From a virus, in the IMG/VR virus record IMGVR_UViG_3300017729_000054, positions 1 through 21,180 of that record: a DNA stretch of 21,180 nucleotides; one strand, 5' to 3'. The notes beneath the pieces were generated by a model. The model made no database searches. It worked only from the letters and a program-made list of their open reading frames with translations, and was not told the DNA's origin. Shown in pieces: positions 3,042 to 21,051 of this stretch (position 1 is the first letter of the stretch; every line of letters begins with the position of its first letter). Both the position numbers and the translations under genes were made by a program.

Positions 3042-4925
3042 CTAGTAGCCTACGACTTTACCTCTAATATCTTTTGATGGGTACTTGATTTCAAATATTG
3101 CTGGGTCTTGAGAAGGATAAATTACTTTGTTTTTTGTTGCAGATTGTATGTCATAAAAATTTCCAGAATATCCAGATGCCTTATCAAATTTACAATGTAT
3201 TTGAAGGTCAGCAACTGTTTGTACTCCTTCAACTTTATCTAACTCTGTTGCTACATTTCCTAAAAATATTGGTTCATTAAATTGCCATTTATCTATAGCA
3301 AATATATCTTGTATTTTAAGTATACACTTAGCAAGTACTTCTTTTCCTTGATAACCAGGTAAAGGCACTATTGAAAAATCAACACCAAGGTTTATTATAA
3401 AACCGTCTTTAATATTTACTGCGTCTGTTAAAAGTCTAAATTTACTTAGGTAGTTTCTAACATTTTCTTTTGTCACTATGTTTGCAGGCGCCAATTGACC
3501 ACTTGCATTATAAGCAAGCATGTAGCAATTTATAGCTAAAGGATTTGACAAAGAACCTCCTGTGTCTGGGTTTTCTTGTTCATCTTGAATTAAATATGCT
3601 TTTGCCACGTTTCCAAATCTACCTGGCATTGAATATATTCTAGCAATATAATCTTCTCTAGTTACTGCTCTATTTTGAGCAGCAAAAAACGCTAATGCAT
3701 TTTGTCTTATTTCTTCTATTGTTTCAGCCGATTTTCCTCCAGCTGCTGGTCTTGGGTTGTTTACCGCTATAGATCCGTTAACAAAATTTATTGCATCTGC
3801 CGCTAATCCATCGTTGTCAAGTGAAAATGCTACCGAGCTTATATCAGTTATGGTTCCTGCTGGAACATTGGCTTCAACTCCTCCTCCAACTAAATACTTT
3901 ATAGTTAAATCTGTATTTGCAGGAGCCTGTCCATATGCTCTAGTAAACATTGTATTTGATGGATCCCAGGCGTTGTCTATTTGAGAAACGTTTCCATATG
4001 GTAGTGCTAATCCAACATTGTCTGGGTTAGGAACAATTATTTCGTCTGCCTGTCCAGAGTTTCCAGCACCAAATAATATTTCAGTTGACATATCTGGCCT
4101 TATGTTGGTCACAAATCTTCTACCGGTTCTTTTTAATTTTAAAAGATAAGGAGTATCTTCATTAAATTGAGCAAGCTCTTCGTCTTGAAGGGCTGTATTT
4201 TTTACATCTACATAAGAAGTTTCTTGAGCTAAATAATCTACCTCGTAATATTTATTTCCATCTGTGTCTACAATATTTAATACCTCTATAACATTTTCTT
4301 CAGGCAAAAGTCTTTTGTCAAATTTAATTGGGCTACCAAATTCAAATGTTCTTGATTTTTCTGTTCCAGATTTTGCGTAAATACTTTTTTTCAATAAAAA
4401 ACTTTCTGGGTTACCATTTGCGTCTATTTTATACACCGATATATCAGTCGCGTCAATTGAACTAGAAAAGGTAAAATCTATTGGGGCCGTCGTAAAAAAT
4501 TCTTGTGCACCTTGGTTTGGAGCATTTACCCGCATTCCTTCATCTACTACTGGGGCATATCTAAAGTCAGGAACAACGTTTGCTCCTGATCCTATTGGGG
4601 GAAGTAATATAAATACATCTAGTTCTACGTTTGCTGCAACAGTTGGTTTAACCTTATAGCCTAATCCTCTTGCAATCGACATTATATTACTTCTTTCTTG
4701 AGCCTCTGTTATTAAGCTTTCTCTAAGCTGGTTATCTATATAATAAGATAATACATCTCCAACATAGGCTGCCATTTCCATAAATATCATTCCAGGAGAA
4801 GATTCATTAAAGTCGTTAAACACATCTGGAAAATAAGTTTTAGAGTAGTCTATTAGTTTTGTTCTAAACTGCTGAAAATCTTTATTTAGGTATCTTAAAT
4901 CTTTTTTAATTGTTTGTAGTCCCAT
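3042..4925 (-). CDS. gp6: Baseplate wedge protein gp6-like (baseplate J-like)
   Basis: 627 residues, close to T4 gp6 (about 660). In T4, gp6 dimers link neighbouring wedges into the inner baseplate ring and bind gp53, gp25 and gp7. The N-terminal region carries SSPGMIFMEMAAYVGDVLSYY (about 42-62), the usual opening of this family. The conserved baseplate-J segment lies at about 396-430 (GGKSAETIEEIRQNA... then NRAVTREDYIARI), followed by MPGRFGNVAKA. The start has AGGCGGA about 7 nt upstream and is 1 nt past the stop of the gp25-like gene. This matches the T4 order 25 then 6. The family identification is secure from these motifs and the neighbour. Confidence 0.92.
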   Translation of the reverse strand: MGLQTIKKDLRYLNKDFQQFRTKLIDYSKTYFPDVFNDFNESSPGMIFMEMAAYVGDVLSYYIDNQLRESLITEAQERSNIMSIARGLGYKVKPTVAANVELDVFILLPPIGSGANVVPDFRYAPVVDEGMRVNAPNQGAQEFFTTAPIDFTFSSSIDATDISVYKIDANGNPESFLLKKSIYAKSGTEKSRTFEFGSPIKFDKRLLPEENVIEVLNIVDTDGNKYYEVDYLAQETSYVDVKNTALQDEELAQFNEDTPYLLKLKRTGRRFVTNIRPDMSTEILFGAGNSGQADEIIVPNPDNVGLALPYGNVSQIDNAWDPSNTMFTRAYGQAPANTDLTIKYLVGGGVEANVPAGTITDISSVAFSLDNDGLAADAINFVNGSIAVNNPRPAAGGKSAETIEEIRQNALAFFAAQNRAVTREDYIARIYSMPGRFGNVAKAYLIQDEQENPDTGGSLSNPLAINCYMLAYNASGQLAPANIVTKENVRNYLSKFRLLTDAVNIKDGFIINLGVDFSIVPLPGYQGKEVLAKCILKIQDIFAIDKWQFNEPIFLGNVATELDKVEGVQTVADLQIHCKFDKASGYSGNFYDIQSATKNKVIYPSQDPAIFEIKYPSKDIRGKVVGY

Positions 4926-5472: not shown

Positions 5473-5922
5473 TTATTTTTTCTTTTTATCGATTGCTTTC
5501 ATTAAACCGCTATAATCTCTAGTTAATACTCCTGCTAGTTCGTCGTCTATTTGTACGTGTTTTCTGTCATCTGGTAACATTTGTTTGGCTGATGGTTTTC
5601 CTCCAAACATCTGTTCAGGTGATTCCATTCCCATCATTGAAGCTAGGCCGGCCCTACCATCACTTGTATTTAATGTTTTTCCTCCCATAGTTTTCCATTG
5701 ATCTTTAGGAGTAGCTGCAGTTTCATTTAATACTTCATTTAAAATAGGATCTTTTGCAAAACTTTGTTTTTCTGTATTAAACAATCCATCTGCATGTTCC
5801 ATCATTTGATTAAATTCTGTCTTTTTAGAGGGTTGTTTTTTGTTTAGTTCTTCTTTTATTGCTAAACGTACTTCTTTTCTGACAACTTTTTTTATAACCT
5901 CTAGTAAATTTGATTTTTTCAT
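5473..5922 (-). CDS. Conserved-looking phage protein of unknown function in the baseplate operon
   Basis: 149 residues. I placed the start at the ATG at 5922 (MKKSNLLEVIKK) rather than a longer form, because AGAGGA sits 6-7 nt upstream of it. Residues 1-35 form a strongly basic amphipathic helix (KKVVRKEVRLAIKEELNKK). The middle is polar. The C-terminus is LAGVLTRDYSGLMKAIDKKKK. No enzymatic motif, membrane segment or signal peptide is visible. It lies immediately before gp25, so it could be a minor virion or assembly protein. I do not recognise the family. Confidence 0.75.
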   Translation of the reverse strand: MKKSNLLEVIKKVVRKEVRLAIKEELNKKQPSKKTEFNQMMEHADGLFNTEKQSFAKDPILNEVLNETAATPKDQWKTMGGKTLNTSDGRAGLASMMGMESPEQMFGGKPSAKQMLPDDRKHVQIDDELAGVLTRDYSGLMKAIDKKKK

Positions 5923-5945
5923 AATTTTTCCTCTTTTGTAATACA

Positions 5946-5977
5946 CTATTTATCAATATATAAATATCAATAAATAG
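5946..5977 (-). promoter_or_regulatory. AT-rich inverted repeat with a GATATTTA box upstream of the 5922 gene
   Basis: CTATTTAT at 5946-5953 is exactly complementary to ATAAATAG at 5970-5977. Between them, on the minus strand, is GATATTTA (5961-5968), the same kind of box seen in the leaders at 8834, 15588 and, as TATATTTA, at 9725. The CAGATT element seen at three other sites is absent. It could be an internal promoter or operator ahead of the gp25-gp6 half of the operon, or simply AT-rich spacer. Confidence 0.35.
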
Positions 5978-6841: not shown

Positions 6842-8470
6842 CTATACTAAAAAGTCCCATGTTGGGTGGCTTCTAGGTACTCTAGAAAACATACCTGTTC
6901 CTGGCGCATATTCCCAGTGCCAACGCTCTTTTGCAACCGTTCTAATAAATCCATACTCATGCATATTTGCAACAAGCCATCTCCAAGTTTTAGATGTTTC
7001 TTTATAACCTTTAAAGTCTGGATCTCTTTTTGGATGTCCCCATCTTTTACCCATACCTGTATTTATATCAAATGCTTTACCATTTTGGTGGTTGGAATGT
7101 CCTGGTCCAGCGGTTAATGGATCAAAATATCCGCCTTGTTTTTGCTGCTTTGACCAACCATCGTCATATACCCCAGCTGGTTTTGACAATCCAGACTTGG
7201 TACCTTGATATGCTTTATCGGCATTTTTTCTTCTAAGAGTCATTTGGCCATCGCCTCCAAACCCTTGGCCTGAATATGCCTCCATAGGTCTGAATCCGCT
7301 ATTAACTTTAACAGTGACTCCATCTTTTGATGCTGCTTGTTTTACAGTTAATATTTTGTCTGCAAAAGCCTTATTTACAATTTTACCGTCAATAACTACA
7401 CATGTTATTGTTTCAACAAATTTACCTCTTCTATACGCATCGTATTCTCCAGCATCTTGTAGTTCTTCAACAGCTTCTTGTATGTCTTCATCTGCCTCAA
7501 CTTCTGTTTCAGATACTGGCCCAGTTTCGCCTTCTCCATTTTCTGCACCTCCACCACCGGCTCTTTGATCTCCTTCAGCCTTACCTCCACTAGTTGCTCC
7601 ACCATCAGTTGGAATTTCAGCAGCATCAGGTCCAGCAATGGCTTCTCGTTCTGCTTCTTTTGCGCTTTCATAAGCTTGGCCATAAGAATCTGCCAATTTA
7701 GAGGCTACATCTATTGGAACACTTTGTCCTGATAACATCCATACCCCTGAAGAATCTTCGTTTATACTTTCTATGTGATACCCTCCATCGGTTGTTGAGT
7801 GGCCGGTTGATAATATAGTTATTGGATCTCCATCAACTCCGTCTTTAGACCAATCATTTTCGGTATCAGGTTCAGATACGGTACTACCAAATCTTAAGGA
7901 CTGACCAAACCTTCCTTCCAATATAGTATCTCCTTCATATGGAAAAATTCTAGCTATTGTATCTGATTCAAATGTATTACCAAATGGAAGGTCATTTACG
8001 TCTCCCTTAGAGTTACCAGTAAAAGTTCTATAATTCTTATCATCACCTCCGGCTTTATTTATATTATAACTCGCAGCTGGTAATCCGTTTTGGTTAACTC
8101 CTTGCCATACTCCAACTGGCATACTAATATAATACTTTTCAGTTGATGCTGTACTTAATTGAGCTGCTCTTCCAGCGGCTGCCAAAAGTACAACTATTTC
8201 TCCTAGTAAAGGATATTGTCTTAGGTTTGGAAATAAAGGATTATACCAACTACAACTATCTCCAGAAATACCAAACTCTCTTGGAAAAGCTCGAGCCTGT
8301 ATACTACCAATAACCCTATATTGACTAGGATTAAAGGCTGGATGAGATGGATCCATTATTATATCAACAACTTCAGCCGATTCAAGTAAAGCTGATTGAA
8401 TTGCTTTGGCTTGGTTATTTTGACCCGTTACTGATGGATTACTTTTTTTACTTGGTTTTATCCTTGGCAT
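6842..8470 (-). CDS. gp5: gp5-like baseplate hub with C-terminal M15 peptidase (tail-associated lysin)
   Basis: 542 residues in three parts. Residues about 30-250 resemble the gp5 OB-fold hub: IGSIQARAFPREFG, YNPLFPNLRQYPLLGEIVVLL (76-96), then ARIFPYEGDTILEGRFGQSLRFGS (173-196) and GDPITIL. Residues about 260-345 are a low-complexity linker rich in Gly and Glu. Residues about 355-525 form a zinc peptidase of the M15 (VanY/D-Ala-D-Ala carboxypeptidase-like) type. SGFRP is at 391-395. HQNGKAFD gives zinc ligands H461 and D468. ERWHWEY gives catalytic E515 and ligand H518. T4 gp5 carries a lysozyme here, so this phage seems to cut peptide cross-links instead of glycan during DNA entry. The start overlaps the upstream gene by 23 nt. 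Confidence 0.88.
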   Translation of the reverse strand: MPRIKPSKKSNPSVTGQNNQAKAIQSALLESAEVVDIIMDPSHPAFNPSQYRVIGSIQARAFPREFGISGDSCSWYNPLFPNLRQYPLLGEIVVLLAAAGRAAQLSTASTEKYYISMPVGVWQGVNQNGLPAASYNINKAGGDDKNYRTFTGNSKGDVNDLPFGNTFESDTIARIFPYEGDTILEGRFGQSLRFGSTVSEPDTENDWSKDGVDGDPITILSTGHSTTDGGYHIESINEDSSGVWMLSGQSVPIDVASKLADSYGQAYESAKEAEREAIAGPDAAEIPTDGGATSGGKAEGDQRAGGGGAENGEGETGPVSETEVEADEDIQEAVEELQDAGEYDAYRRGKFVETITCVVIDGKIVNKAFADKILTVKQAASKDGVTVKVNSGFRPMEAYSGQGFGGDGQMTLRRKNADKAYQGTKSGLSKPAGVYDDGWSKQQKQGGYFDPLTAGPGHSNHQNGKAFDINTGMGKRWGHPKRDPDFKGYKETSKTWRWLVANMHEYGFIRTVAKERWHWEYAPGTGMFSRVPRSHPTWDFLV

Positions 8471-8816
8471 GTTCTTCTTCCCACTTAACGGGCTTTTCAG
8501 TTTCCTTTATTGTATCTAATAGTTGTTTTCTTTCATCATCGCTAAGACTAAAATCACTTCCTTCAGACTCAGATCTGGTTTGAGCTCTTTGAACAATACT
8601 AGCCATTTTAACCAGCATGTCGTCATTTTTTATTCCTACGTCTAGATAATCCTTTATTAATGGTACTAGTATTGTTGCATCGCTTATATTTTTAATTAGT
8701 GGATGCAATTGAGCAATTAAAGAATTTATCTGCTTATCTTTTTTCTTAGAATTCGTATGAATTTCCTTTAATAAGTCAGAAAAATTCTTACCTTGAAATA
8801 TTTCTTCTTCAAACAT
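8448..8816 (-). CDS. Small helical phage protein heading the baseplate operon, unknown function
   Basis: 122 residues, charged and predicted mostly helical, with no membrane segment. The N-terminus is MFEEEIFQGKNFSDLLKEIHTNSKKKDKQ, followed by LIAQLHPLIKNISDATILVPLIKDYLDVGIKNDDMLVKMASIVQRA, and an acidic/basic tail. The ribosome site AAAGGGA is about 7 nt before the ATG. The 3' end overlaps the hub gene by 23 nt, which implies coupled translation and suggests a linked role such as a hub chaperone or small baseplate component. It is the first gene after a terminator. I do not recognise the family. Confidence 0.75.
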   Translation of the reverse strand: MFEEEIFQGKNFSDLLKEIHTNSKKKDKQINSLIAQLHPLIKNISDATILVPLIKDYLDVGIKNDDMLVKMASIVQRAQTRSESEGSDFSLSDDERKQLLDTIKETEKPVKWEEEHAKDKTK

Positions 8817-8833
8817 AATAATTCCCTTTAGTA

Positions 8834-8841
8834 TAAATATC
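8834..8841 (-). promoter_or_regulatory. Candidate -7 box of the baseplate operon promoter
   Basis: On the minus strand GATATTTA lies 17 nt before the ATG at 8816 and just downstream of the terminator that ends the preceding unit. A new promoter is needed here if that terminator works. The 20-nt-upstream position falls inside the terminator hairpin and does not match CAGATT, so if this is a promoter it belongs to a different class from those at 14754, 20471 and 20974, possibly one read by the phage sigma factor. Confidence 0.4.
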
Positions 8842-9200: not shown

Positions 9201-9611
9201 TTAAAATTTAAGACCAAACCCTAACATAAGGTTTGTAGTCTTTTCTCCTGTGTTGTAAACCACTTTAGGATCTACGTATACACCTTTGTGTATAGTGAAT
9301 AATTTACCTAAACCAATCTTTAAAGATTCAGTGTCTAGGCCTGAAGTTGCAGCATATACAAAATATCCTTTGTGAAAATATCTTGCATGGAAATCTAATT
9401 CCATATCAACCGTTGAGTCTGCTTGAGCTATGGAAACTCCAACCATTAAGTTGTCTGTTACCCCATATCCTACAGTTGGCGAAACTGCCCAATCTGTCCA
9501 AGCTACGTTTGCCACGTCTCCAGTACCAATGTACCAATCGCCTTTTGTCTGTGCCTGTGTTCCTATAATAGATGCACATGCCAATACTACTGTTAAAATA
9601 ATTGTTCTCAT
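9201..9611 (-). CDS. Small secreted outer-membrane beta-barrel protein
   Basis: 136 residues. Residues 1-20 are a signal peptide: a short basic start (MR), a hydrophobic core (TIILTVVLACASIIG), then probable cleavage at TQA before QTKGDW. The mature part, about 116 residues, alternates polar and hydrophobic residues in strands (DWYIGTG, WAVSPTVGYGV, LMVGVSIAQ, MELDFHARYF, YFVYAATSGL, SLKIGLGKLF, GVYVDPKVVY) and ends LMLGFGLKF. A terminal Phe is the usual barrel-insertion signal. The ribosome site is GAGGAG, 7 nt before the ATG. A phage would use such a protein to alter the host surface, for example to block other phages, but this is inference. It precedes the 74-residue membrane protein in the same unit. 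Confidence 0.82.
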   Translation of the reverse strand: MRTIILTVVLACASIIGTQAQTKGDWYIGTGDVANVAWTDWAVSPTVGYGVTDNLMVGVSIAQADSTVDMELDFHARYFHKGYFVYAATSGLDTESLKIGLGKLFTIHKGVYVDPKVVYNTGEKTTNLMLGFGLKF

Positions 9612-9719: not shown

Positions 9720-9724
9720 ATTTA

Positions 9725-9732
9725 TAAATATA
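9725..9732 (-). promoter_or_regulatory. Candidate -7 box for the 9611-8912 unit
   Basis: TATATTTA on the minus strand, identical to the box of the three CAGATT promoters. At the equivalent 20-nt distance upstream the sequence is AAGAAGGT, a partial match only (5 of 8). It lies just after the stop of the sigma factor gene. It would give a leader of about 110 nt containing the GGTTAT array. Confidence 0.45.
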
Positions 9733-9737
9733 CTTTT

Positions 9738-10517
9738 TTAATTAAAAAATTTACCTTCTTGAAATTTTTTGAATTTATCACTAAAATCTTCCTTTATGAC
9801 ATTAACGACCTTTGTAATGTGTTGTGTTTTGGTGTCAGTCATTTCTCTAATTAAAATATATAGTGCTTTTTTATTGAATATTTCTATGTTTTTTCTTTCT
9901 TCGAATAGTCTTAAAACTGCATAGGCTATTCTTTTATCTCTGCTGGATCTAAATCTTTCTTCAACAATTCTTTGATAATATTGTGGAAACTTTTCCATAA
10001 ATACATCTAAGTCGTCTCTATAATCTTGTGTACTGCTTTCTCTACCTAGATCTCTTTCCCTGTCTATTGCAATTATAGGTTTTTTTGCCTTTAAATCTCT
10101 ATAGTTTCTATTATTATTTTGTATTAAATAATTTTTTGCAACAATACTAAAATATGAAAAAGCCTTTCCTTTTCCCTCAACAAATTTTGGCAGTTTTTCA
10201 AGCATAAATGCTATTACTTCATGTTGTATTTCTCTAGGTCCGCCGTCAAAGTAATAAAATTTAAACGTATGTATAATATTTTCTGCTAGCTTCATGAGCG
10301 GTTTATGTATGAACTCATTATACACCTTGTTTTTTAACGCTTGAGAAGTGTCTTTATTATACGCAATAATTGCTCTTTCAGTTTCAAGAGTAAAATATAA
10401 TTTATTTTTTCTAGGTCGACCTCTCTTTGTCTTTAAAGCCTCTATTGCTGCTAATCTTCTTTCTTCCTCTAGGTCAGAATAGAATTGTTCTACTGGAGAT
10501 AGTTTTTTATTTTCCAA
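9738..10517 (-). CDS. RNA polymerase sigma factor, gp55-like late sigma
   Basis: 259 residues. Sigma region 2-like helices lie at about 60-140: ALKNKVYNEFIHKPLMKLAENIIHTF, then a core-binding-like segment REIQHEVIAFMLEKLPKFVEGKGKAFSYFSIVAKNYLIQNNNRNYRD. This is the pattern of T4 gp55-type late sigma factors. An AT-hook-like RGRPRK is at 32-37. The C-terminal half is charged and helical with no obvious region 4. The start is TTG, chosen because GGAGG lies 6 nt upstream and no better in-frame ATG exists. The gene overlaps its upstream neighbour by 11 nt. It would direct host RNA polymerase to phage promoters. The sigma call is firm in kind; gp55 orthology is likely but not proven. Confidence 0.78.
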   Translation of the reverse strand: MENKKLSPVEQFYSDLEEERRLAAIEALKTKRGRPRKNKLYFTLETERAIIAYNKDTSQALKNKVYNEFIHKPLMKLAENIIHTFKFYYFDGGPREIQHEVIAFMLEKLPKFVEGKGKAFSYFSIVAKNYLIQNNNRNYRDLKAKKPIIAIDRERDLGRESSTQDYRDDLDVFMEKFPQYYQRIVEERFRSSRDKRIAYAVLRLFEERKNIEIFNKKALYILIREMTDTKTQHITKVVNVIKEDFSDKFKKFQEGKFFN

Positions 10518-13996: not shown

Positions 13997-14005
13997 AATA
14001 AATAA

Positions 14006-14638
14006 TTATATATTTTTTATTGAAAAGTGATATGTGTATAAGATAATATCTACTCCATCAACCATATCAACGCTGTCCTCAGACTTAGATATTAGTTTAT
14101 TTCCATTAGATTCAAATAGGTCTTTTATTTTATCTAATATATTTTTATCAGTTGAACACATAGATAAAGTTCCCCACTTTGAACTCACATTAACAGCCGT
14201 TGGAGATATATTTGCCGCATCAAAATAATCTCCGTAATTTAAAGACTTGTCAATAGAATCTCTGATACTTTCGCCTTTTGATAGATGTTTAACATACTTA
14301 TCAAGTAAATCTTTAGGGCACCTATCTATCCAATCATTAAAAAAATCAATGTCGTCGTGGAATAGGTCTTCTTTATCTTCTGTTGTCAGTAGATTCCATA
14401 AAACTTTAGTGACAATGTCTTCAGCTTCTTTTATTTCTTTATATAGGCTTCTATTTGCTATGTTGTTAAAATATTCTGTAAAATCGCTTTTAAATTTTTC
14501 TGTAGATATTGATTTAGCTTCTAGCTCGGTTAAGGACTCGACATAGGATGACATGTCCTCTTCGATGTTTTCCCAAAAGTTAGAATTGGGGTCAAGTACA
14601 TCATCAATTTTCCATAAATGTCGTTTACCTATTCCCAT
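14006..14638 (-). CDS. Phage protein of unknown function behind a structured leader
   Basis: 210 residues, acidic, no membrane segment. The start is the ATG at 14638 (MGIGKRHLWKIDDVLDPNSN), because AAAGGA lies 6 nt upstream; a longer TTG form would begin inside a G-rich leader element. Residues 20-130 look helical (NFWENIEEDMSSYVESLTELEAKS, then EYFNNIANRSLYKEIKEAEDIVTKVLWNLL). The last 65 residues appear beta-rich (SKWGTLSMCSTDKN to VDIILYTYHFSIKNI). No catalytic motif recognised. It is the first gene of the 14638-9738 operon and has its own CAGATT-type promoter, so it is probably expressed as a separate unit from hsp20. Confidence 0.75.
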   Translation of the reverse strand: MGIGKRHLWKIDDVLDPNSNFWENIEEDMSSYVESLTELEAKSISTEKFKSDFTEYFNNIANRSLYKEIKEAEDIVTKVLWNLLTTEDKEDLFHDDIDFFNDWIDRCPKDLLDKYVKHLSKGESIRDSIDKSLNYGDYFDAANISPTAVNVSSKWGTLSMCSTDKNILDKIKDLFESNGNKLISKSEDSVDMVDGVDIILYTYHFSIKNI

Positions 14639-14655
14639 ATGAATTCCTTTATACA

Positions 14656-14670
14656 CCACCAACCCAACCC
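14656..14670 (-). promoter_or_regulatory. G-rich element (possible two-tetrad G-quadruplex) before the ribosome site
   Basis: On the minus strand GGGTTGGGTTGGTGG gives four G runs with loops TT, TT and T. It ends about 18 nt before the ATG at 14638 and a few nt before the AAAGGA ribosome site. It is the most G-rich short stretch in this AT-rich leader. A folded element here could lower translation, and a phage nucleic-acid-binding protein might use it as an operator. Confidence 0.4.
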
Positions 14671-14696
14671 AGCTGAACTCTTTTAGCTATCTGTGA

Positions 14697-14732
14697 CGTC
14701 TCAGACGCAAACAACTTGAAGGAAGAATTCCT
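14697..14732 (-). repeat. Two short inverted repeats in the 14638 gene leader
   Basis: CGTCT-C-AGACG at 14697-14707 and AGGAA-GAA-TTCCT at 14720-14732 (plus-strand reading). The second contains AGGAATTC on the minus strand, the same 8-mer that forms the ribosome site region just before the ATG at 14638. Together with the G-rich element they make this leader more structured than others in the window. They may be protein sites or part of an RNA fold. Confidence 0.4.
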
Positions 14733-14753
14733 AACACCTTCGTTATATACATA

Positions 14754-14789
14754 TAAATATAGTTTTAAACATTATTATTCTACAATCTG
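14754..14789 (-). promoter_or_regulatory. CAGATT-type promoter of the 14638 operon
   Basis: On the minus strand CAGATTGT (14782-14789), exactly 20 nt, then TATATTTA (14754-14761). The same arrangement with the same spacing occurs at 20471-20506 and 20974-21009. It matches the Bacteroidota -33/-7 layout (TTTG, 19-21 nt, TAnnTTTG) with an added CAGA. The upstream element lies within the last codons of the 14775-15014 gene. It would give a leader of about 110 nt. Confidence 0.68.
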
Positions 14790-15014
14790 AGCGTCTTTAA
14801 TGGTTTGGCAAAGTAAATACTTATTTCCCTTTCTGAGTACGTGGTCGCAATTATTGTCGTCTTTCCACATTTTAAGTATTTGCATTGCTACTTGTTCAGC
14901 CGTTAAACCATACCTAGAATTTGTAATACCATACGTGTTTGGATCTATGCAGCTTTCGCCAATTTCTCTAACTACTACGTATGCGTTATCTCCATTGTAA
15001 AATATTTTTTTCAT
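14775..15014 (-). CDS. Small protein of unknown function downstream of hsp20
   Basis: 79 residues, MKKIFYNGDNAYVVVREIGE at the start. It contains NSRYGLTAEQVAMQILKMWKDDNNCDHVLRKGNKYLLCQTI, suggesting a small alpha/beta fold with two cysteines (C58, C69) besides C22. No signal peptide or membrane segment. The ribosome site is poor (AGG about 11 nt upstream). Its 36-nt leader repeats part of the hsp20 leader, so the two genes may be regulated in the same way. No family recognised. Confidence 0.7.
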   Translation of the reverse strand: MKKIFYNGDNAYVVVREIGESCIDPNTYGITNSRYGLTAEQVAMQILKMWKDDNNCDHVLRKGNKYLLCQTIKDAQIVE

Positions 15015-15016
15015 AT

Positions 15017-15051
15017 AACATTAGCCTGCGGGCCAGTTTTTATTTATAACC
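15017..15051 (-). repeat. Leader repeat, copy 2 (before the 15014 gene)
   Basis: Plus-strand AACATTAG (15017-15024), a GC-rich CTGCGGGCCAG (15026-15036), then TTTTTATTTATAACC to 15051. AGTTTTTATTTATAACC (15035-15051) matches the hsp20-leader 17-mer at 15539-15555 in 15 of 17 positions, and AACATTAG is shared exactly. The GC-rich 11-mer is the near-complement of the one at 15558-15568. Confidence 0.6.
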
Positions 15052-15500
15052 TATTTAATTGTAATTGTTTTTGGCTTACTGTCTGGAGAAACAGGTACTT
15101 CTAATCTTAAAAGACCGTTTTCCATTTTTGCCGTAATTTTAGTTAAATCAAATTTAGGACTAATCTTCCACCCTAAATCAAAAGACCTTTTAGCAATACC
15201 CTTGTGGATATATTCTCCTGCGTCTTGGTCTGAATCATTAGATTCGATGGTTGGTTTAGTATATGAAACCTTTAACATAGTTCCATCCTCTGTAGAAAGA
15301 TTGATGTCTTCCTTATCTAACCCAACTGCAGCAATTTCAAATATTAATGCTTCTTCCGTATAGATAATGTCAACAGGATGGTTTATTTTCCTATCAACAT
15401 TAGTCTCAAAAGCCGAAGCTTGGTCGAAAAAATTCTTAAATAATAAATCAGTTGGGAATAGTCTTGTGCCGAAAGGCGTGTTCACTCTTAGTGTTGTCAT
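15051..15500 (-). CDS. hsp20: Small heat shock protein Hsp20
   Basis: 149 residues, normal for the family. The N-terminal arm is 1-38. The alpha-crystallin domain spans about 40-137: HPVDIIYTEEALIFEIAAVGLDKEDINLS, then FDLGWKISPKFDLTKITAKMENGLLRLEVP, with the conserved ENGLL turn at 127-131. The C-terminal I-x-I motif that docks onto neighbouring subunits is ITI at 146-148. Such ATP-independent holdase chaperones bind unfolding proteins in the cytoplasm and are a recurring gene in T4-like phages of aquatic bacteria, perhaps aiding virion assembly. The ribosome site is strong (AAGGAG, 7 nt, ATG). Its leader carries a repeat shared with the next gene. Confidence 0.93.
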   Translation of the reverse strand: MTTLRVNTPFGTRLFPTDLLFKNFFDQASAFETNVDRKINHPVDIIYTEEALIFEIAAVGLDKEDINLSTEDGTMLKVSYTKPTIESNDSDQDAGEYIHKGIAKRSFDLGWKISPKFDLTKITAKMENGLLRLEVPVSPDSKPKTITIK

Positions 15501-17822: not shown

Positions 17823-18334
17823 TTTAATATTATATTTAGTTCAATTTTATCCGTGTATCCATCAGCAAATTCAGCAATTGATGTTATATGTATGGTATCG
17901 CCCTTCATTGATTTTACAGGGGCTAACATTATATTTATTTCACCATCTTCGGTACTATAACAAACCTCATTTATTGTAGGTACCTCAAAACCGTCAAACC
18001 AAGTTATATACGAAGTATCAACTGTACTATAGATATAAATATCATTTAGCATATTATTAAAGTGTATGATATAGCCTAAAGTATCTCCAATATACCAATA
18101 ATGAGAACTAGTCCAATAAACTTTGGTTAAATCATATGTATTACTAACAGGTGATACTTTGCCTGAAATTCTATGTAAAGTTTGCCAACTCTCTGACATT
18201 GGTAAATGATAATAACCTGCAGAGTCAGCACTTAACCTTACGTCTAGTTCAAAATCGTGGCTAATTGGAACTGTTGTTTCTTTTTTGCAACCAAATAGTA
18301 TTAACGCTAACGATATGTATATTATTTTATTCAT
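17819..18334 (-). CDS. Phage-encoded lipoprotein
   Basis: 171 residues. It has a lipoprotein signal peptide: MNK, a hydrophobic core (IIYISLALI) and a lipobox LFGC with the lipidated cysteine at C16. The residues after it are KKETT; a lysine followed by acidic residues near the cysteine is the kind of signal that sends lipoproteins to the cell surface in Bacteroidota. The mature 156 residues look like a beta-sandwich rich in aromatic residues (VYWTSSHYWYIGDTLGYIIHF, YITWFDGFEV). The start forms TAATG with the stop of the VWA gene. Phage lipoproteins often block further infection at the envelope, so that is one possible role here; it is inferred. Confidence 0.8.
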   Translation of the reverse strand: MNKIIYISLALILFGCKKETTVPISHDFELDVRLSADSAGYYHLPMSESWQTLHRISGKVSPVSNTYDLTKVYWTSSHYWYIGDTLGYIIHFNNMLNDIYIYSTVDTSYITWFDGFEVPTINEVCYSTEDGEINIMLAPVKSMKGDTIHITSIAEFADGYTDKIELNIILK

Positions 18335-20439
18335 TATGCTGTTGCGAACATTTTGTTTAGTGAATTTGCTAGAGGAACTAAAGAGTTAGTATCAATAAAT
18401 TCAGCGTCTTTACCGTACATTTTAGTAAAGTTGCCTTTATCTGAACTGTAACCTCCAGTAATAAAATAGCTAAGAACTTTAATGCCTCTAGATTTCATAT
18501 TGTCTACTTGTTTTTTAGTATGGTTAGAAGCTGCATCTCCATAGTAGGTAATATCTGCATTTTCAAAGTATGGTTCGCCATCACTAAAGTTAATAAAGAA
18601 ACTTTCAACACCACTAGAACCATCAACAATTTCTCTTTGAATAGCTTCAAAGCAAAGACCTTCAGGAGTAGTACCTGGACAATTGATGTATTTGAATAAA
18701 GATTGTATCTTTGTAATCTTATCTTTTCTACTGTCATAGGCTATAAATATTGCTGGAGTCATTTTTTTACCTATTTGTTCGGTACTTCTATAAGATATAA
18801 CTACTTCTAAGTTTTGTACCATTGAAGCTGCTTTAGCTATTGCAACAGTAGCTACTTGAGAATTTATCCATTTTTGTCCACTCATAGAGCCTGATGCGTC
18901 AACACTAATGTGAACTATTCCAGGCTTAAATCTTTCTTCAAACACCTGTTGAAATACGCTTTGATAGCCGTGTCCTAGACTAGCAACCAATCTTTTGTCT
19001 AATTTACCCTTGTTAAGTCTACTATATTTTAATGTTCGTTCATCGTTTCTAACTTGTAATTTTCTACCTAGTTTAGACCCTAAAACTATACCTTTATTGA
19101 TAGCTTCTGCATTATTTTCAAATCTCCATTTGTATTGTTTAGAAAATGTTTGGTAGACATTAGACTCTGCTAGATTAGCTGAAATATTTTTAATAACTAA
19201 ACAGTCTGTACCAGTACCAGTTTTATCATACCAATTTTTTGGAAGACCTTTACCAACGGTTTTTTGGTCTGAACCAGAATCAGCAATAGCTTGTACATTG
19301 TTTTTATCTTTTTTAGATAGGTTTGATTTCTTAACCTCGCCGTTTAAAAGTTCTTTTTGTTTTTCAATGGCTTTATCTAAACTTCTTTTTTGAGAATCTG
19401 ATAATTCTATAGCTTTAGAAGCTTTACCATTATTAGATGGTGAACCTTGACTAGTAGAACCTTCATCCTCTACAATTTTCTTTGCAATATTATCAATATC
19501 TTCTTGGCTTAAATCTTTACTAGATGAACCATTACTTTCTTGACTAGAAGAACCTTCACCACTATTTTTTTGATTGTCTCCACCATCTTTTTGTTCTTCA
19601 ACATTTTTAATTTCTGGAATATTTGAATCTATTACTTTGTATATCTCAGCTGCAACGTCTAATGCTTGACCTGTATTTTTAAGTCTATCGATATTCTTAA
19701 GATCTAATATAGACCAGATTTTTCTAAGGTCGGGAAGAGCATCAAGGTTTCTATTAACGTTTGTAAGATTAATTAAACGAAACATATATGAATCTAAATC
19801 AAGACTAGTTTTTTCTTCAGACCTAAGAGCTTTATCTATAACACTAGCATGAAAATATTTATCATATAAAGCTTTGTAATATCCTTGGTATCCAGGAGCT
19901 GATTTATAGATAAAGTTATCTATTCGTCTATCTTCTACATAATTTAATATTTGTTTAAGTGTAGATGCTACTTTATTAATAGCGTGCCTAGTATTTATTG
20001 TATGTGTATTAACATATTGGTCTTTTTCATCGTCCCACATTGTTTCATAATAGCCGTATTTCTCAGCTATTTCTGTAATATTAAAGTTTAATTTAATATA
20101 CTCATCAAAATTGTCTTGTTTTAGAAGATCAAAATTTGTTAGTTTACAGTGAGAACCTTCGTGAAGTGCTAAACCAACAGTAGGGTCGAAATCTTTGTCT
20201 TTAATATTACCAGATATAACGACTTGTTTACCATCAGTAAAACTTTCGTCTTTGTTGCTGTATTTTACAGGAATGTTTTCTCCAGTTACGATTCGAACAA
20301 AGTTTGATATGGCTCTAAGAGTAGCAGCCATTTTTACGTAATCTTTACCAGGTTTAATATCTTCTCCAGTTAAAATATCTACAGTATCGTCTTGATCGAA
20401 GTCATACCAGAATGAGGAGTTTGAATGAGTGTTTGACAT
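18334..20439 (-). CDS. CobT-like VWA-domain protein with an HExxH metallopeptidase motif
   Basis: 701 residues, cytoplasmic. The N-terminal third carries LALHEGSHCK, with a zinc-type HEGSH at 93-97, and YVEDRRIDN at 167-175, whose acidic residues could supply the third ligand. Residues about 280-340 are a low-complexity Ser/Gly/Gln linker. The C-terminal third (about 505-700) is a von Willebrand factor A domain with a full MIDAS: DASGS at 514-518, a threonine in GTTPEG (about T590) and SDGEP with D620. The layout resembles cobaltochelatase CobT-type and VWA-MoxR-associated proteins, which work with an AAA+ partner (CobS/MoxR). No such partner is in the window. It heads a long operon with a CAGATT-type promoter. 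The A/C-rich leader lacks a Shine-Dalgarno. Confidence 0.82.
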   Translation of the reverse strand: MSNTHSNSSFWYDFDQDDTVDILTGEDIKPGKDYVKMAATLRAISNFVRIVTGENIPVKYSNKDESFTDGKQVVISGNIKDKDFDPTVGLALHEGSHCKLTNFDLLKQDNFDEYIKLNFNITEIAEKYGYYETMWDDEKDQYVNTHTINTRHAINKVASTLKQILNYVEDRRIDNFIYKSAPGYQGYYKALYDKYFHASVIDKALRSEEKTSLDLDSYMFRLINLTNVNRNLDALPDLRKIWSILDLKNIDRLKNTGQALDVAAEIYKVIDSNIPEIKNVEEQKDGGDNQKNSGEGSSSQESNGSSSKDLSQEDIDNIAKKIVEDEGSTSQGSPSNNGKASKAIELSDSQKRSLDKAIEKQKELLNGEVKKSNLSKKDKNNVQAIADSGSDQKTVGKGLPKNWYDKTGTGTDCLVIKNISANLAESNVYQTFSKQYKWRFENNAEAINKGIVLGSKLGRKLQVRNDERTLKYSRLNKGKLDKRLVASLGHGYQSVFQQVFEERFKPGIVHISVDASGSMSGQKWINSQVATVAIAKAASMVQNLEVVISYRSTEQIGKKMTPAIFIAYDSRKDKITKIQSLFKYINCPGTTPEGLCFEAIQREIVDGSSGVESFFINFSDGEPYFENADITYYGDAASNHTKKQVDNMKSRGIKVLSYFITGGYSSDKGNFTKMYGKDAEFIDTNSLVPLANSLNKMFATA

Positions 20440-20459: not shown

Positions 20460-20476
20460 TATTTATAGTATAAATA
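20460..20476. repeat. Perfect 17-bp palindrome TATTTATA-G-TATAAATA, copy 1
   Basis: Two 8-bp arms around one base, 20 nt before the ATG at 20439. An identical palindrome is at 20963-20979. It overlaps the TATATTTA box on the minus strand and includes the probable transcription start, the usual place for a repressor operator. It also holds a T4-late-like TATAAATA on each strand. Confidence 0.65.
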
Positions 20477-20507
20477 TAATAAAAATAAACGACATAAAAA
20501 AATCTGG
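20471..20507 (-). promoter_or_regulatory. CAGATT-type promoter of the 20439 operon
   Basis: On the minus strand CCAGATTTT (20499-20507), exactly 20 nt after its CAGATTTT part, then TATATTTA (20471-20478). The same elements and spacing occur at 20974-21010 and 14754-14789. Transcription would start near the palindrome, giving a leader of about 20-25 nt rich in ACAAAC before the ATG. Confidence 0.72.
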
Positions 20508-20534
20508 GGTGATTATTTTCAATTTATTTTCAAA

Positions 20535-20550
20535 AGTTATTAACAATTTA
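20535..20550 (-). promoter_or_regulatory. Upstream box with GTTATTAAC palindrome
   Basis: Plus-strand AGTTATTAACAATTTA, immediately after the stop of the 20551 gene, 58 nt beyond the 17-bp palindrome. The same 16-mer is at 21018-21033, and a partial copy at 21039-21051 sits at almost the same distance from its own promoter. GTTA-T-TAAC is a perfect palindrome, as expected for a dimeric regulator. Confidence 0.5.
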
Positions 20551-20949
20551 TTAACGTTTATTTTTTCCACTAATAAAGTCTTGTTGTTTTGAGATGGCAT
20601 CATCTAATTCAGACGTGGTATCGTTAAATTTATTTGTGATTACCTTAGACTTTTTTCTAGTTGAACCGCTTAATACGTTCTTCTTTGTGAAGGCGTATTC
20701 TTTATTAGTTACCCCGTTAGACTCGATAATTCTATGTGGACCAACAGATGGGTACAACATAAAGCCTCTACTATCGTGCCTATCAGGTACCTGCATAGTA
20801 TATAGAGTTTGCTTGTAGTCTGTTTCCAGATGATCCCATGAGTCACCTTGATAAGTCTGCTTGATGACTACCCCAATGTGAATAGATCCATCAAAGTATT
20901 TGAATTTTACCTCTGTACCTACTGGGTATTTGTGCTTAGCTTTTTTCAT
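20551..20949 (-). CDS. Small protein with an SH3/Tudor-like N-terminal fold, unknown function
   Basis: 132 residues. Residues about 8-75 have a barrel-like pattern: YPVGTEVKFKYFDGSIHIGV, then VIKQTYQGDSWDHLETDYKQTLYTMQVPDRHD and RIIE. The opening G-T-E-V-x-F-K-Y-x-D-G-S resembles SH3-like modules that bind proteins or nucleic acid. The C-terminal 55 residues are basic, then helical and polar (LDDAISKQQDFISGKNKR). There is no Shine-Dalgarno before the ATG, only A-rich sequence (AACAAACATTAATT). It has its own CAGATT promoter and appears to be a single-gene unit. Confidence 0.72.
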   Translation of the reverse strand: MKKAKHKYPVGTEVKFKYFDGSIHIGVVIKQTYQGDSWDHLETDYKQTLYTMQVPDRHDSRGFMLYPSVGPHRIIESNGVTNKEYAFTKKNVLSGSTRKKSKVITNKFNDTTSELDDAISKQQDFISGKNKR

Positions 20950-20962
20950 AATTAATGTTTGT

Positions 20963-20979
20963 TATTTATAGTATAAATA
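20963..20979. repeat. Perfect 17-bp palindrome TATTTATA-G-TATAAATA, copy 2
   Basis: Identical to the palindrome at 20460-20476 and in the same relation to the promoter. It lies 13 nt before the ATG at 20949. Confidence 0.65.
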
Positions 20980-21010
20980 TAATCAAAATAGTTGACCCCT
21001 GAAAATCTGG
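20974..21010 (-). promoter_or_regulatory. CAGATT-type promoter of the 20949 gene
   Basis: On the minus strand CCAGATTTT (21002-21010), 20 nt, then TATATTTA (20974-20981). Identical in both elements and spacing to the promoter at 20471-20507. The 20-nt spacers differ in sequence, so the match is confined to the functional-looking parts. Confidence 0.72.
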
Positions 21011-21015
21011 ATGAT

Positions 21016-21051
21016 ATAGTTATTAACAATTTACTGATAGTTATTAACAAT
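21016..21051 (-). promoter_or_regulatory. Two tandem upstream boxes, 21-bp period
   Basis: ATAGTTATTAACAAT at 21016/21017-21030 and again at 21037-21051, spaced by 21 bp, about two turns of DNA. Both contain the GTTATTAAC palindrome. The distal copy is positioned like the single box of the 20439 promoter. Such spacing suits cooperative binding of a regulator to one face of the helix. Confidence 0.5.

Follow-up and report, generated by a model that had tools for sequence, protein, structure and literature searches.

Two sites in a 21,180-base virus record, at positions 20471-20506 and 20974-21009, are by their sequence two members of a widespread predicted promoter family, here termed class E. 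Its members are found in T4-like phages that differ in their late boxes, and a more degenerate version in a cultured Chryseobacterium phage. We consider it probable that both sites are early-type promoters of a T4-like flavobacterial phage, recognized by the RNA polymerase of the host when it carries the Bacteroidota primary sigma factor, and that a third site, at 14754-14789, is a late-type box outside the family. Conservation, the fixed spacing, helical phasing, strand and position upstream of genes are shown directly by the sequences; promoter function, early timing and the identity of the polymerase we infer from the DNA, the term early being chosen on gene context and by analogy.

Class E sites share a fixed spacing and a long conserved unit

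The window, meaning the whole stretch of DNA analyzed, is the complete IMG/VR record, and the genome-wide scan proposed in the preliminary description was therefore run in relatives. Scanning the window for the motif of that description, CAGATTKT and a partner box separated by exactly 20 nt, returned the three reported exact matches at 14754-14789, 20471-20506 and 20974-21009, all on the minus strand, where nearly all genes are encoded, and no further exact match anywhere in the window. Allowing up to three mismatches gave 4 matches against 2.5 expected, so that only exactness is informative. Megablast of the whole window against phages yielded no match.

Scanning IMG/VR for CAGATTTT-N{14,26}-TATATTTATAC identified 59 distinct sites, 48 of them with N20 and the other 11 distributed over seven spacings, none with more than two sites, confirming the exact spacing noted before. 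In the alignment of the N20 sites, the conserved unit proved to be far longer, about 75 nt, and reads approximately GAAAATAAaTCACtC-CAGATTTT-tttatgTCGtttatTatgat-TATATTTATACTaTAAttaA. It comprises the TTTT stretch (-36 to -33) with an A-rich/TCAC block upstream, a spacer that is partly conserved (ATGTCG) and TATATTTATACTATAA. When the final base of either box was allowed to vary, 56 sites were obtained, in which box 1 was CAGATTTT in 31 cases, AAAGTTTT in 13 and others in the rest. The CAGA extension previously regarded as conserved is thus simply the commonest extension of the TTTT at -36 to -33 (CAGA in 31/56 sites, AAAG in 13, AACA in 3, besides others). The base at -33 was T in 56/56 sites, and TATATTT was kept with A at -5 in 53/56, a count that retains some bias from matrix flanks trained on A-5 sites; the Flavobacterium phage immuto, analyzed without the matrix, also has A.

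We built a matrix from 42 N20 sites of other phages, leaving out the window's closest contigs, and took as class E any site scoring above all shuffled sequence, where no score exceeded -9. In the window, 20471 ranked first (77.9) and 20974 second (35.2), the next best sense score being -20, whereas 14754 ranked 22nd (-48.9) and falls outside class E. The proposal that all three sites represent one motif was hence not confirmed; only two belong together. In whole contigs, the matrix detected 11 sites in G001 (80 kb), 10 in G004 (79 kb), 4 in G006 (66 kb) and 19 in G007 (149 kb). Most were placed immediately upstream of a gene of the same orientation, leader lengths clustering between 14 and 40 nt, as judged from contigs that are mostly fragments and from gene starts set by mechanical ORF calls. 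The expected clustering before genes was thereby seen in the relatives. The proposed class of phage promoters, arranged like the Bacteroidota -33/-7 promoter and preceding coding-strand genes, is supported; it recurs in large phage contigs and, as the same layout, in cultured Flavobacterium and Chryseobacterium phages. We also considered class E as a host promoter or repeat and rejected this, as CAGATTTT-N{17,23}-TATATTTATACTNTA had two matches in 84,980 genomes, neither with N20.

Both predicted promoter cores of the window lie on the minus strand. The first consists of CAGATTTT (20499-20506), N20 and TATATTTA (20471-20478); its predicted transcription start at ~20466 lies 27 nt before the ATG of a 701-aa VWA-like gene (18334-20439) that it would drive, and the site is conserved in G014, G015 and G017. 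The second, conserved in G014 and G015, consists of CAGATTTT (21002-21009), N20 and TATATTTA (20974-20981), with a predicted start at ~20969, 20 nt before the ATG of gene 20551-20949, which it would drive. The earlier statement that the motif stands directly upstream of a gene applies to these two sites, but not to 14754, where a tmRNA remnant intervenes.

The CAGATTTTTTT stretch could in principle be the intrinsic terminator of the preceding gene, formed by a hairpin AATCTGGAGTGA...TCACTCCAGATT and a T-run, rather than part of a promoter, and an inverted repeat followed by a T-run is indeed seen in L056, L077 and L089. We consider this very improbable, as the left arm is missing at most sites and the T-run keeps a fixed distance of 20 nt from a -7 box, from which the leader up to the ATG is almost constant.

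Site 14754 as a probable late-type box

The two halves of site 14754-14789 behave differently in relatives. The first half, CAGATTGT (14782-14789, minus strand), belongs to the coding sequence of ORF 14775-15014 and forms its 3' end (Q-I-V-E-stop), its box corresponding to the codons CAG ATT GTA (Q-I-V) just before the stop. Relatives keep the Q-I-V peptide with CAA or CAG, the box changing to CAAATTAT by synonymous change (CAA) in L014, L027 and L029, and to GAAATCAT, with loss of the box, in L042. The second half lies within TATATTTATA (14752-14761, minus strand) and persists where the first box changes; in relatives it is kept as [TG]ATATTTATA, directly before a permuted tmRNA. From its sequence, the site is probably a late-type box, and by its matrix score it is not a class E promoter. 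Since a coding CAGATTKT would fall exactly 20 nt from a late-type box by chance only with a probability of the order of 1e-3, 14754 may nevertheless carry a weak real -33 element.

Behind this box lies a permuted tmRNA remnant (14661-14747, minus strand), recognized by alignment to intact copies and lacking the tRNA-like and tag parts. ARAGORN detected no tmRNA in the window, and Rfam returned nothing for 14000-15300. Intact circularly permuted genes, with an RF04321 match (E 3e-9 to 2.5e-12) and a tag frame, were found by ARAGORN in the relatives L012 (4197-4485), L014 (795-1086), L026 (577-866), L029 (5283-5571), L030 (5109-5398) and L042 (1056-1350), with tags such as GEQVELAMAA and variants; in five aligned relatives the late-type box is directly followed by the permuted tmRNA. 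Most of the gene is deleted in the window and in L009, where the remnant was kept. Two-piece tmRNAs are known in aquatic phages (PMC9004378). Rfam additionally matched positions 3798-3833 of L029 to DUF805b, a cis-regulatory RNA (RF02914, 39.5 bits).

Further late-type boxes are located on the minus strand at 5959-5968 ([TG]ATATTTATA) before gene 5473-5946, at 8832-8841 before gene 8448-8816, and at 9723-9732, 111 nt before gene 9201-9611; the box is enriched in sense intergenic DNA. Its presumed reader is a gp55-like sigma factor candidate encoded at 9738-10517 (minus strand), with homologues in immuto and in Microcystis phage Mel-JY01. A late-sigma PHROG is the best match of its distant homologues, at weak E-values of 0.006-0.02. 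The structure model is of moderate confidence (pLDDT 75, pTM 0.50) and yielded a Foldseek list dominated by sigma factors, none significant, with no E-value below 0.09; phmmer against PDB sequences returned nothing. On these sequence and model data, the late-type boxes, including 14754, are probably read by this candidate. T4 late promoters consist of TATAAATA, read by gp55. We also tried TATAAATA on the coding strand as a signal and discarded it, as it was not specially concentrated before genes.

A distal element stands in helical phase with box 1

Allowing up to two mismatches, a distal element, TTGTTAATAAC, was present in 33/77 non-redundant class E sites and absent from 44/77. Exact TTGTTAATAACT copies were located 20 nt (1 copy), 30-32 nt (20 copies) or 40-42 nt (9 copies) upstream of box 1 and at no other distance, and are thus in helical phase with it. 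The corresponding Rayleigh value of ~4e-11 overstates the significance, as sites within one genome are not independent and most of the 31-32 nt class comes from G007; with one value per genome and distance, ~15 values were left, all in phase. In the window, the 20471 promoter has TTGTTAATAACTT at 20534-20546 (minus strand), 40 nt upstream of box 1 and within the 40-42 class, and the 20974 promoter has two TTGTTAATAACT copies, at 21018-21029 and 21039-21050 (minus strand), 20 and 41 nt upstream of box 1, respectively. Within the window lineage, the shift from 30 to 40 nt shows up as roughly one helical turn of inserted sequence. As an abundant, DnaA-box-like host repeat, TTGTTAATAACTTTT was rejected, with 15 copies and no clusters in 60 Bacteroidia genomes sampled outside the close flavobacterial hosts.

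These features bear on the question whether class E sites are instead middle-type, activator-dependent promoters, at which the host polymerase would depend on an additional DNA-binding protein, encoded by phage or host and similar in role to the MotA protein of T4. Such a protein would recognize either the block upstream, the palindrome TTGTTAATAAC with its phased position, or the block CAGATTTT/ATGTCG. Conservation extending beyond the sigma elements, the helical phasing of the distal element and the non-host A at -5 would all fit such an activator. However, the distal element is missing from 44/77 sites, box 1 varies, and the cultured phage MA9V-1 has the host-type TATATTTG at many sites, and we regard this reading as unlikely. 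A further reading, likewise unlikely, is that some protein binds TTGTTAATAAC, always on one face of the DNA but at any of three turns, and would rescue the non-host -7 box with A at -5, in an activated promoter common to distantly related T4-like flavobacterial phages whose genes would thus be selectively transcribed.

The class E layout in cultured phages

In immuto, the top-enriched 8-mer upstream of genes was TATATTTA, found in 27/90 regions against 0.8 expected. Its small-gene region at 60-76 kb shows GTTG-N20-TATATTTAGGTATCAATAATTAAAA, and its capsid and tail genes are preceded by KATATTTATA, with no -33 box. In Chryseobacterium phage MA9V-1, ~30 sites resemble class E, without exception on the coding strand; their -7 boxes include TATATTTG, the host consensus, at many sites and TAAATTTA, with both A and G at the last base. 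The pattern [GT]TT[GT]-N20-TAHHTTT[AG] before genes peaked at N20 in immuto and MA9V-1 (30 and 39 sites, respectively), and Mel-JY01 showed no N20 peak for it. A different upstream word, CTTGCATA, is enriched before Mel-JY01 (PP395634.1) genes, in 10 regions against 0.3 expected. The MA9V-1 paper makes no mention of promoters, and the searchable literature yielded no description of early transcription signals of Bacteroidota phages.

Host RNA polymerase as the probable reader of class E

Late-type boxes differ between the phages that share class E. KATATTTATA is found in the window and in immuto, and GATATATAA in G001, G004, G006, G007 and G009, where it ranks at or near the top of the words enriched upstream of genes and is apparently a second late-type box of these lineages. 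The capsid-type proteins of G001 and G007 are ~25% identical to that of immuto. A signal common to phages with differing late boxes and such a low capsid identity is best explained by a shared host enzyme. A single sigma factor for both classes would fit the occurrence of TATATTTATA in both within the window lineage and the encoded gp55-like candidate; we consider it very unlikely and rejected it, as late-type boxes differ between lineages, phages that share class E having GATATATAA instead, while class E does not differ, and as the late-type boxes have no fixed upstream box.

In the host-polymerase reading, 20471 and 20974 would be read leftwards by RNA polymerase carrying sigma-ABfr, the -33 element being TTTT (-36 to -33) and the -7 element TATATTTA (-12 to -5). 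Transcripts would begin 4-5 nt downstream of the second box and carry A-rich leaders 20-27 nt long, and the A-rich/TCAC block together with the phased TTGTTAATAAC would strengthen the promoter via the polymerase alpha subunit or a same-face activator. This geometry matches that of sigma-ABfr promoters, where TAHHTTTG occupies -12 to -5 and the start lies 4-5 nt downstream (PMC6847099; PMC9723704). The main difficulty is the A at -5, as hosts prefer G, which is nearly invariant at this position in F. johnsoniae (PMC6847099). Among 30 Bacteroidia genomes, TTG-N20-TATATTTG occurred 252 times versus 112 for the reversed control; the same test with TATATTTA gave 199 versus 185. The A at -5 may be tolerated through compensating upstream blocks, or may be the mark of a dedicated factor.

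Two further observations speak against parts of the host-polymerase reading. The closest annotated match of the window's gp6-like baseplate protein is that of Microcystis phage Mel-JY01 (48% identity). The window lineage has Shine-Dalgarno-like leaders, which are unusual and unexpected for Bacteroidota hosts. Class E constitutes real, although indirect, evidence for the host phylum.

Shine-Dalgarno-like AGGA/GGAG/GAGG leaders were enriched in the window lineage (9/29 versus 2.7), G008 (43/101 versus 12.5) and Mel-JY01 (64/226 versus 17.3); no such enrichment was present in immuto, G001, G004 and G007. Ribosomal protein bS21 is the subunit controlling Shine-Dalgarno use in Flavobacterium. Phage-encoded bS21 (PF01165) was detected in G005 (28209-28349), G006 (56789-56923), G009 (14747-14902), G010 (3558-3716) and PP395634.1 (22231-22392), and does not simply track the Shine-Dalgarno-rich phages.

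Class E is a defined and scorable predicted promoter family across lineages, with a phased upstream element and a layout present in cultured phages. Four features had been missed before: the conservation of spacer and upstream block, the distal element in helical phase, the A at -5 and the late-type nature of 14754. The phage take-over of an unusual Bacteroidota polymerase becomes directly testable, and the family could help to assign contigs of uncultivated phages to a host group, besides supplying candidate strong promoters for flavobacterial genetics.

Comparison with known promoter systems

Boxes of the 14754 type resemble T4 late promoters in being short single boxes without an upstream partner before structural genes, in a phage encoding a gp55-like sigma candidate, but their coding strand reads TATTTATA, the reverse complement of TATAAATA. 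Class E resembles T4-type early promoters (PMC1524935) in that numerous, almost identical copies precede small genes and combine the sigma elements of the host with an A-rich UP-like region; it differs in the sigma consensus and the distal phased element, and the two were not homologous by any test made. The early-like promoters of immuto found in this analysis share with class E the arrangement GTTG-N20-TATATTTA, a conserved leader, ~20 copies and the location in a small-gene region, but have GGTATCAATAATTAAAA downstream instead of TACTATAATTAA and lack TTGTTAATAACTT. With sigma-ABfr promoters (-33 TTTG/-7 TAnnTTTG), class E shares both element positions, the spacing of ~20 nt, which is exact in class E, and a short A-rich leader, whereas it differs by TTTT at -33, where immuto has G as the final base, by the A at -5, and by the long conserved spacer and upstream blocks.
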